Assembly (NCBI RefSeq): GCF_000500065.1
Contig: NZ_AYOU01000121.1
Span: 124,001-188,000 of the forward strand
Direction: 5' to 3'
Length of the DNA stretch: 64,000 nt
Origin: Borrelia hispanica CRI
Lineage (GTDB): Bacteria > Spirochaetota > Spirochaetia > Borreliales > Borreliaceae
Shown: in pieces, positions 14,999 to 17,944 of the stretch
Position numbering within the stretch: position 1 is the stretch's first letter
Layout: each line of letters starts with the position of its first letter
Made by a program: the position numbers and the translations under genes
The notes under the pieces: model-generated
Told to the model about the DNA's origin: nothing
Databases searched by the model: none
What the model saw: the letters and a program-made list of their open reading frames with translations, nothing else

Positions 14999-15024
14999 AG
15001 AGATAAGAATTATTTCTTATCTCT
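14999..15024 (+). terminator. Hairpin terminator of the lipoprotein gene, overlapping the fruA 3' end
   Basis: AGAGATAAGAA (14999-15009), loop ttat, TTCTTATCTCT (15014-15024), then TTTC. An 11-bp perfect stem 32 bases after the lipoprotein stop. The right half of the hairpin encodes the last residues and stop of convergent fruA. Confidence 0.7.
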
Positions 15025-16869
15025 TTTCATAAATCCTATTAATAGTCCTGTTATTAAACTTCCAATTAGGATTGCTACTATCCACATTAATGGATGAGTT
15101 ATTATTGGTAGAATAAAAATACCTCCGTGTGGAGCCATAAGTTTTACTTGAAATAATGCAGATAAAAAGCCTCCAATAGATGAACCTATTATGCAAGCAG
15201 GTATTACTTTTAGAGGATCTGATGCTGCAAAAGGAATTACCGCTTCTGTTATAAAACATGCTCCTAAAACATAACAAACTTTACCAGCTTCATGTTCTTC
15301 TTGTGAAAACTTGTTTTTAAAAATGCTGGTTGCAAGTGCAATTCCTATTGGGGGAATCATTCCTCCTGCCATTACGCTTGCGTGAGGGATATAATTTTCT
15401 GAAGTTATCATTGCGATTCCGAATGCATAAGCTGCTTTGTTTACCGGTCCACCCATATCTATTGCCATCATTCCTCCAAGTAATGCACCTAGTAATGCCA
15501 TATTTGTTCCACTTAGTGAATTTAACATATTTGTTATAGATGAATTAAGATATGCAATTGGTGCTAATAATATATATGTTAAAAATCCAGCTATTAGTAC
15601 TGAGAAAAATGGATAAGTTAAGACAGGATTAATGCTGCTTATATTTTTTGGTATTATTTTTTGACTTATTGATTTTATTATTAAGGTAACGTATCCTGCA
15701 ATAAATCCTGCTAATATTCCCCCTAGAAATCCTGCATTTCCTTTACTCATCATTAGTCCTGTAATCATTCCAGGTGCAAGGCCAGGGCGTTCTGCTATAC
15801 TAAATGAAATGTAACCAGCAAGTATTGGAATCATTAAGAAGAAAGCATTGCCACCACCAATTTGCATTAAAATATCTGCTATTTTATTGTAATTTGGATC
15901 GTTTGGGTCAAAAGCTTTAATGCCAAACATAAATGATATTGCAATTATTATTCCTCCAGATACTACAAATGGAAGCATAAAAGATACACCATTCATTAAG
16001 TGTTTATATATCTCCGTATTACTTGTATTATTTGTTATTGTGTTTTCTGTTTTTTGTGATGTGTTGCTTCTATAGATTTCTGCTTTGTTATCAATGATAT
16101 CTTGAATGAGTTCTTTTGCCTTATGTATACCATCTTTAACCCCAACTTCAATTAATGGTTTGCCATTAAATCTTGTTTTATTAACAGTTTTGCCGGATGC
16201 AATAATTATTCCTTTTGCTTTTTTGATATCTTCTTCGTTTATTGGATTTTCAACTCCACTAGAGCCATTAGTTTCTATTTTAATTTCTACGTTTAATTCG
16301 TTTGCGGCTCTTTTTAAGCTGTCGGCTGCCATGTATGTATGGGCGATTCCTGTGGGACATGCAGTTACTGCTAAAATAAAATTTTCAAGATTCGTTTTGC
16401 TCATTATTGTATCGCTGTTGGGAGTATTTAAAATAATTTCTAAAAATCTATTTTTGTCGTTTGTATTCATAATCTCTTGTCTTAGAATGTCGTTATTAAA
16501 TATGTTATTAAGATAAGAAATTGTTTTAATATGGTCATTACCAGTTGTATTTTCAGGAACAGCTATCATAAAAAATAGTTTTGAAGGTTTTAAGTCAGAA
16601 GCACCAAAGTCAAATCCTTTGTCTTTAACTCTTAATATTGCTATTCCATGTTTTTCAACAAAATTACCTTTTGCATGGGGCATTGCAATATATTCTTCAA
16701 GACCCGTTCCACTTATTTCTTCTCGTTTTTTAATATCTTTTATAAAATTTTCTTTGTTCCTTAGGTATCCATTTTCATTTAGCATGTCGGCCATTTTTTC
16801 AATTACGTCATCTTTGCTTTTGGCTTCGTAATTCAATAATATTAATTTTTTAGAAAATAAATCTTGCAT
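15010..16869 (-). CDS. fruA: PTS fructose-type permease, EIIABC fused
   Basis: A 619-residue fused phosphotransferase permease. Order: EIIA of the fructose/mannitol type (residues 1-145, phosphorylated His65 in MPHAKG), EIIB (about 165-265, phosphocysteine near 172 in TACPTGIAHTYMAA), a short linker rich in Asn/Thr, and EIIC with eight or more membrane spans. It imports and phosphorylates fructose, or a related sugar, at C1. The ATG follows a GGAG site. It is divergent from fruK (1-phosphofructokinase), which supports fructose as substrate. The 157-base space between them contains a striking palindrome array, likely regulatory. Confidence 0.94.
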   Translation of the reverse strand: MQDLFSKKLILLNYEAKSKDDVIEKMADMLNENGYLRNKENFIKDIKKREEISGTGLEEYIAMPHAKGNFVEKHGIAILRVKDKGFDFGASDLKPSKLFFMIAVPENTTGNDHIKTISYLNNIFNNDILRQEIMNTNDKNRFLEIILNTPNSDTIMSKTNLENFILAVTACPTGIAHTYMAADSLKRAANELNVEIKIETNGSSGVENPINEEDIKKAKGIIIASGKTVNKTRFNGKPLIEVGVKDGIHKAKELIQDIIDNKAEIYRSNTSQKTENTITNNTSNTEIYKHLMNGVSFMLPFVVSGGIIIAISFMFGIKAFDPNDPNYNKIADILMQIGGGNAFFLMIPILAGYISFSIAERPGLAPGMITGLMMSKGNAGFLGGILAGFIAGYVTLIIKSISQKIIPKNISSINPVLTYPFFSVLIAGFLTYILLAPIAYLNSSITNMLNSLSGTNMALLGALLGGMMAIDMGGPVNKAAYAFGIAMITSENYIPHASVMAGGMIPPIGIALATSIFKNKFSQEEHEAGKVCYVLGACFITEAVIPFAASDPLKVIPACIIGSSIGGFLSALFQVKLMAPHGGIFILPIITHPLMWIVAILIGSLITGLLIGFMKRDKK

Positions 16870-16898
16870 AGGGAAGCTCCTTGATATAGTGTATAATT

Positions 16899-16912
16899 CC
16901 TATTATAATAGG
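16899..16912. repeat. 14-bp perfect palindrome in the fruA upstream region
   Basis: CCTATTATAATAGG reads the same on both strands. It lies 30 bases ahead of the fruA start and contains TATAAT-like sequence on both strands, so it could overlap the fruA -10 or be an operator half of the larger array beside it. Confidence 0.7.
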
Positions 16913-16916
16913 CATG

Positions 16917-16951
16917 ATATATTATAATTATATCATATAATTATAATATAT
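16917..16951. repeat. Inverted repeat with 16-bp arms and 3-base spacer
   Basis: The left arm ATATATTATAATTATA (16917-16932), spacer tca, and right arm (16936-16951) are exact reverse complements. The last three bases overlap the 60-bp palindrome that follows. Both arms contain TATAAT-like boxes, so promoter function and structure may overlap here. Confidence 0.85.
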
Positions 16952-17008
16952 TAAGTTGTTTAATTGTATTACTTAATTAATTAAGTAATACAATTAAACA
17001 ACTTAATA
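16949..17008. repeat. 60-bp perfect palindrome between fruA and fruK
   Basis: A perfect inverted repeat with 30-base arms and no spacer, centred between 16978 and 16979. The outer ends read TATTAAGTTG and CAACTTAATA; the centre is TTAATTAATTAA. It ends 6 bases before the fruK ribosome site AAGGAG. As DNA it could extrude a cruciform; as RNA in either leader it would form a near-30-bp hairpin. Function unknown. Confidence 0.95.
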
Positions 17009-17026
17009 ATAATAAAGGAGACTTAA

Positions 17027-17944
17027 TTGATATATACTCTTACGCTTAATCCTGCTATTGATTATAAGATAGTTGTGGAAGGGTTTCAGCAGGAGCATCT
17101 TAATCATGTTGTTAAGAGTAGTTTTCTTGCTGGAGGGAAGGGAATAAATGTAAGTAATGTGCTTAAAAATTTTCAAATGGAGAGTATTGCTTTTGGATTT
17201 TTGGGTGGTTTTACGGGTGATTATATAAAGAGCTATCTTAATTTAATGAAAATAAAGCATAATTTCGTTAATATATCTGATAATACTAGAATTAATATTA
17301 AAATGATGTCATATGGAAAAGAAACAGAAATTAATGGTAATTCACCTGTGATTCTTGAGAAAGATTTTGGATCTTTGATTGTGAAGTTGAAAGAGTTGGA
17401 TGTGGGTATTTTAGTTATGTCTGGGAGTATTCCAAGTTCACTTGGATGTCGAGCTTATAATGAGATAGTTGAGAATTTGTCAAGTAATTTGAGGGTTGTT
17501 GTTGATACTAGTGGTCCTGCATTACAAGAAATTATAAAAATTAAGCCTTTTTTGATAAAGCCAAATATTAATGAACTTAAAGAACTTTTGGGTATAAATT
17601 TGACTTCTGATAAAGATTTAATTAATGTTGGGCATAAACTTGTAGAAAGGGGTGTTCAAAATATCATAATCTCAATGGGAGATGACGGGGCTATTTTTAT
17701 AAATAATCAAAATGTTTATATAGCTAATGTTCCTAAAATTGATTCTTTGAGTACTATTGGTGCAGGAGATTCTGTTGTTGCTGGATTTGTATATGCTTAT
17801 CAAAAGGGACATTCTTTTGGTGATTCTTTTAAGTTTGCAGTTGCATCAGGTACCGCAACAGCATTTAAGGGACAACTTTGCAATTTAGATGATGTTAAGG
17901 GTATTTTAAGCAAAATAAACCTTGAAAAGGTTTTTTTAGATTAA
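17027..17944 (+). CDS. fruK: 1-phosphofructokinase
   Basis: A 305-residue PfkB-family sugar kinase converting fructose 1-phosphate to fructose 1,6-bisphosphate. Motifs: N-terminal YTLTLNPAID, the glycine-rich GGKGINVSNVL, and the C-terminal anion-hole/catalytic-base segment STIGAGDSVVAGF. The start is TTG at 17027, six bases after AAGGAG; the next residues match the usual family N-terminus, so this start is good. It is divergent from fruA, its substrate supplier. Its leader would include the second arm or all of the 60-bp palindrome, which suggests regulation at promoter or RNA level. A tagatose-6-phosphate kinase role is a less likely alternative. Confidence 0.93.
   Translation: MIYTLTLNPAIDYKIVVEGFQQEHLNHVVKSSFLAGGKGINVSNVLKNFQMESIAFGFLGGFTGDYIKSYLNLMKIKHNFVNISDNTRINIKMMSYGKETEINGNSPVILEKDFGSLIVKLKELDVGILVMSGSIPSSLGCRAYNEIVENLSSNLRVVVDTSGPALQEIIKIKPFLIKPNINELKELLGINLTSDKDLINVGHKLVERGVQNIIISMGDDGAIFINNQNVYIANVPKIDSLSTIGAGDSVVAGFVYAYQKGHSFGDSFKFAVASGTATAFKGQLCNLDDVKGILSKINLEKVFLD

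Follow-up and report, generated by a model that had tools for sequence, protein, structure and literature searches.

The gap between the divergent genes fruA and fruK of Borrelia hispanica CRI contains a perfect palindrome of 60 bases, whose right arm was probably created by a replication template switch and which, transcribed from the predicted start, would place a hairpin at the 5' end of the fruK mRNA. We assign to this explanation as a whole a probability of about 0.6. Unless a contig is named, coordinates refer to the window, i.e. the whole stretch of 64,000 nucleotides that was analysed.

Structure and distribution of the palindrome

Letter-by-letter comparison of positions 16949-16978 with 16979-17008 revealed exact reverse complements (30/30 bases, 0 mismatches, 0 nt spacer) which together form a palindrome of 60 bases (30+30) at 16949-17008 with 13% G+C in its arms. 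The palindrome is located in the 157-nt divergent gap extending from the ATG of fruA (16869, minus strand) to the TTG of fruK (17027, plus strand), and the AAGGAG motif (17015-17020) begins after a gap of 6 nt on its 3' side. A preliminary description of this DNA had reported a 60-bp perfect palindrome between fruA and fruK which ends six bases before the fruK ribosome site, and both statements are confirmed. The gene names fruA (fructose PTS EIIABC) and fruK (1-phosphofructokinase) were upheld by family profiles (Table 1). A -35-like ATGATA is found at 16914, upstream of the candidate -10 element of fruK, and a second palindrome at 16917-16951, imperfect in the loci L002-L004, shares 3 nt with the main one.

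Table 1. Features of the fruA-fruK region in window coordinates
Feature	Position	Strand	Basis or remark
fruA, fructose PTS EIIABC	15010..16869	-	TIGR01427, TIGR00848 and TIGR00829 above their cut-offs
Second palindrome, 17+1+17, arms of A+T only	16917..16951	.	spans the promoter region
Best candidate fruK -10 element, TATAAT	16936..16941	+	position kept; predicted start ~16948-16949
Second TATAAT, alternative -10 element	16942..16947	+	common to L002-L004 only; predicted start ~16954
Left arm, ancestral fruK leader sequence	16949..16978	+	direct alignment with outgroup leaders
TTTAAT within the left arm, rival -10 element	16959..16964	+	widely kept
Four-base loop of the predicted hairpin	16977..16980	+	T to G at 16977 in B. 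duttonii, the sole near-axis change
Right arm, left arm duplicated in inverted orientation (30 nt) in the common ancestor of the three carriers	16979..17008	+	exact reverse complement; outgroups without counterpart
fruK ribosome binding site, AAGGAG	17015..17020	+	6 nt past the palindrome
fruK, 1-phosphofructokinase, TTG start	17027..17944	+	TIGR03828 above its cut-off

A palindrome of 60 bases is far beyond chance expectation: when the 408 kb contig was simulated 30 times with an order-4 Markov model, zero-spacer arms did not exceed 14 bases, and the maximum was 13 bases in 2000 random gaps matched in composition to the fruA-fruK gap. The census of palindromes covered this contig (C121), 240 kb of genome G008 and, for B. 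duttonii, the entire chromosome. The palindrome is longer than any other perfect one in the 408 kb contig, and so is its orthologue, with perfect arms of 26 bases around a 4-base centre, in the complete 931,674-bp chromosome of B. duttonii. A dispersed palindromic or plasmid element was rejected, as the arm occurs at one locus only in this genome with up to 3 mismatches allowed and the plasmid collection contained no match.

The fruK leaders of 17 Borrelia and 13 Borreliella, those for which loci were returned, were compared. Three genomes carry the palindrome at the same place, namely that of the window (G000), B. duttonii Ly (G003) and B. recurrentis A1, and the loci L003 and L018 agree on its presence. 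None of the remaining 14 Borrelia and none of the 13 Borreliella in the comparison has it, and with up to 2 mismatches the arm sequence was found in no Borrelia genome beyond the three carriers. An assembly artefact, which the preliminary description had wished to exclude by re-sequencing, is ruled out because B. duttonii and B. recurrentis share the same palindrome at the same position.

Some further observations concern the fruK loci of the family. The gene was matched in 35 of 36 Borreliaceae genomes; the sole genome without a match, G010, is 96% complete, which leaves gene loss or a missing contig. According to the search, the fruK frames of L005 (G005) and L111 (G034) contain one in-frame stop each (TAG and TGA, respectively). 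In L008 (G002), a (TA)n tract with self-complementary arms of 38 bases fills the fruA-fruK gap.

In Borrelia, replicated telomeres consist of inverted repeats around an axis of dyad symmetry (PMC4499125), and the palindrome resembles the telomeres resolved by ResT (PMC4499125, PMC6945570) in being a perfect inverted repeat of the same genus. That it represents an internal or fused telomere with a ResT site is nevertheless hardly credible: box 3 (WTWGTATA, from position 14; PMC6945570) scores 3/8 at that position of the arm, for which reason a replicated telomere was rejected, and at best 5/8 anywhere in the arm. Moreover, the arm derives from the fruK leader rather than from the end of a chromosome, the palindrome is traversed without a break by the contig and by two complete chromosomes, and the plasmid collection is without a match.

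Origin by inverted duplication

The leaders of the nearest outgroup and of other relapsing-fever species present the state without the right arm. In L004-L010, the leader reads ...TTATTTAAT..(T)TTACTTAATT followed directly by (A)TAAAGGAG or a close variant; TTACTTAATT is directly joined to ATAAAGGAG or a close variant of it, with no right-arm counterpart. This includes the nearest outgroup, L004, whose FruK is 80% identical and whose leader is empty of the right arm. In B. recurrentis, exactly 30 nt are added between TTACTTAATT and ATAAAGGAG, namely AATTAAGTAATACAATTAAACAACTTAATA. If the 30 nt before it are read in the window's version, this segment is their exact reverse complement; one additional 3-nt repeat is present in the window.

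Alignments of each arm to the outgroup leaders, judged against shuffles of the arm, distinguish the two arms. The left arm aligned to the L004 leader with a score of 20, as compared to 12 for the right arm and a shuffle maximum of 16. Scores for the leaders of L006, L007, L009 and L010 were 20 for the left arm against 10 for the right arm, with shuffle maxima of 16-19, and the left arm scored 14-15, within the shuffle range, in L005 and L008. The right arm scored 7-12 throughout, near or under the shuffle mean. As the left arm aligns to outgroup leaders and the right arm equals an inserted reverse complement, a single inverted duplication in the lineage ancestral to these three genomes would account for the palindrome, an origin that is well supported by these comparisons. 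The palindrome is not an old, selected operator.

The preliminary description had also proposed a double operator. In such a reading, a dimeric regulator serving both divergent genes, fruA and fruK, would bind each arm or the centre of the palindrome. The position of the palindrome in the divergent gap and its dyad symmetry would suit this role, which is nonetheless very improbable, and unlikely as an origin because the ancestor had no right arm. In addition, the 14 other Borrelia retain the fruA-fruK pair without the palindrome, 60 bp of unbroken symmetry exceed what an operator requires, the palindrome has the likely fruA promoter on its left, and there is no other copy in the genome.

The inverted duplication bears the marks of a template switch: L004-L010 keep the ancestral state without the right arm, the added segment matches the neighbouring sequence in reverse complement at 30/30 positions, and the source arm still occupies its original place, with scores above the shuffles in L004, L006, L007, L009 and L010. 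Template switching is a documented source of perfect RNA stems (Monttinen and Loytynoja 2022, PMC8794818). In those cases, as here, one event sets a reverse-complement copy beside its source, the stem is perfect and outgroups are ancestral; they concern microRNA and rRNA genes, whereas the present case is a bacterial mRNA leader with a stem longer than typical RNA helices. Mutations by template switching associated with quasipalindromes are documented in E. coli (PMC7202029), where short inverted repeats likewise steer the polymerase to its own or the opposite strand. The E. coli events mostly perfect an existing quasipalindrome, whereas here a weak ancestral stem (about -2 kcal/mol) was apparently joined by a whole new arm.

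Replication probably switched template where the fruK leader ends in A+T-rich sequence, copying the preceding 30 nt as their reverse complement, before the polymerase moved back onto the original template; in this way the leader would have gained a perfect inverted copy of itself just 5' of the ribosome site. The junctions suggest either fold-back or strand switching as the enzymatic mechanism, and ACTTAAT, with which the new arm ends and which is also found at the switch point, hints at the route by which the polymerase may have returned. Short A+T repeats make the precise switch points ambiguous, and the outgroups vary just before the ribosome site. Separately, the Borreliella locus L108 has a small hairpin in its fruK leader about 35 nt 5' of fruK, with AATT longer on both arms and 14 predicted pairs, perhaps another product of template switching at the same place.

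Divergence and stability of the arms

Within the palindrome, the window and B. duttonii differ by 2 substitutions in 57 aligned positions and by a 3-nt indel. The substitutions affect palindrome positions 2 (outer pair) and 29 (loop), and B. recurrentis differs from the window by the outer change only. Intergenic divergence from B. duttonii is 4.8%, so that two changes are about the median of 60-nt intergenic windows. Selection as deduced from the identity of the arms was therefore rejected as unproven once this divergence had been measured, and the persistence of the palindrome needs no selection. It had been attributed beforehand to either selection or recent origin; recent origin is correct, as the relatives point to one inverted duplication, and with ordinary divergence selection is unproven.

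These values also fit a serious rival to a functional leader hairpin, less probable than the latter but possible, in which the same inverted duplication is a neutral by-product with no effect on fruK and the arms are identical as the event is recent, perhaps aided by template-switch correction between them. A comparison of the arms with other Borrelia, recommended earlier as a search for compensatory changes, yielded no paired changes among the three genomes, which offer little divergence to work with; other hairpins of the same genome do have paired changes relative to B. duttonii. Against neutrality, both substitutions fall outside the core stem, of which about 52 positions are unchanged (P ~0.08 at 4.8% divergence by our own arithmetic), a sign of constraint that is suggestive only, and some effect is to be expected of a 28-bp 5'-terminal hairpin if it is transcribed.

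Two hairpins elsewhere in the genome illustrate paired changes. In the hairpin at G000:C121:54570-54611, the stem differs on both sides from that of B. duttonii in a compensatory manner (CAGACTCATGTGTCTG vs CATACTCATGAGTATG). The hairpin at G000:C121:366524-366570, with arms of 22 bp and sbcCD genes a few kb away, has one pair changed from A-T to G-C relative to B. duttonii, likewise compensatory, and B. duttonii has an extra one-sided change.

Long perfect palindromes had been regarded as normally unstable in bacteria, a rule that holds for far greater lengths. At 60 bp, stability is no puzzle: studies of lethal cleavage in E. coli employ palindromes of 246-460 bp (PMC4245961), although 60 bp lies above the lower limit of 20-36 bp for hairpin cleavage by SbcCD in vitro (PMC4245961). 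The genome encodes SbcD and an SbcC-like gene. A literature search directed at the length limit of palindromes returned nothing direct. The palindrome of B. recurrentis is intact, and recA and mutS of this species are reported to be impaired (PMC2525819).

The putative hairpin in the fruK leader

Relative to fruK, a TATAAT element occupies -58/-59 in L005-L009. Its position in the window is -91, which corresponds to the ancestral place plus a 33-nt insertion. Transcription of fruK is thus predicted to start at about 16948-16949, on the first base of the palindrome. Among the three options offered by the preliminary description (cruciform, double operator and RNase III-type hairpin in the fruK leader), the leader hairpin is preferred because this conserved -10 element puts the start at the palindrome; the lack of compensatory changes counts against it. 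The alternative -10 element at 16942-16947 would shorten the stem by about 6 bp. If TTTAAT (16959-16964) served as -10 element, most of the left arm would lie outside the mRNA and the hairpin would be removed from the RNA. We found no mapped fruK start, the main text of the transcriptome paper being silent on bb0629, bb0630 and fruK, and no literature dealing directly with fruK promoters in Borrelia.

From the preferred start, the fruK mRNA would open with a hairpin of 28 bp and a 4-nt loop instead of a leader with little structure. The predicted folding energy of the leader is -32.5 kcal/mol, as compared to about -2 kcal/mol in L004-L010, and the fold z-score is -9.3 for 16940-17060; such z-scores are a trivial consequence of the palindrome and cannot be taken as evidence for a function. 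The hairpin would end 6 nt 5' of AAGGAG and leave initiation about as open as before, in line with a computed accessibility of the Shine-Dalgarno sequence of 0.38-0.40 with the palindrome vs 0.28-0.43 without it.

Bacterial mRNAs can carry stabilising hairpins at their 5' terminus, e.g. ompA of E. coli. The putative fruK hairpin would resemble these in lying at or near the first base (the start here being predicted) with the ribosome site free; unlike them, its perfect 28-bp predicted stem may be cut by RNase III. It is the fate of the RNA that would probably be affected, through blocking of the 5' end and through a stem of sufficient length for RNase III. The genome contains an RNase III gene, and according to works cited in PMC10319736 RNase III of B. 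burgdorferi acts on rRNA and transcripts. The hairpin is therefore a plausible, putative RNase III substrate, blocking of the 5' end or cutting by RNase III would be its likeliest effect, and a function as leader hairpin is plausible but unproven.

Two other assignments were rejected for this region: no intrinsic terminator (a stem containing G+C with a T run after it) was predicted in 16600-17300, and no known Rfam family reached its gathering score, all matches (an insect element and microRNAs) being sub-threshold.

The zero spacer, the arms of 13% G+C, the A+T-rich flank and a single-strand DNA fold of -24.1 kcal/mol would also be compatible with a cruciform in the DNA which senses supercoiling and tunes the neighbouring promoters. 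We consider this marginally less probable even than the double operator, as the RNA hairpin would form without superhelicity and conservation is limited to three genomes.

A template-switch origin combined with a leader hairpin, our preferred reading, would constitute a clean bacterial case of before and after, in which one copying error gave rise to a predicted perfect 28-bp hairpin in an mRNA leader while sister species preserve the ancestral leader. The finding also illustrates that a long perfect palindrome does not necessarily imply selection, and the system lends itself to testing directly how a newly acquired 5' hairpin affects an mRNA. It is conceivable, if rather doubtful, that this one template switch gave fruK a new 5'-terminal hairpin, sensitive to RNase III or protecting the 5' end, which altered the expression of fructose-1-phosphate metabolism in this relapsing-fever clade. 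If true, one mutation would have brought a bacterial mRNA control element into being at a point that can be dated.
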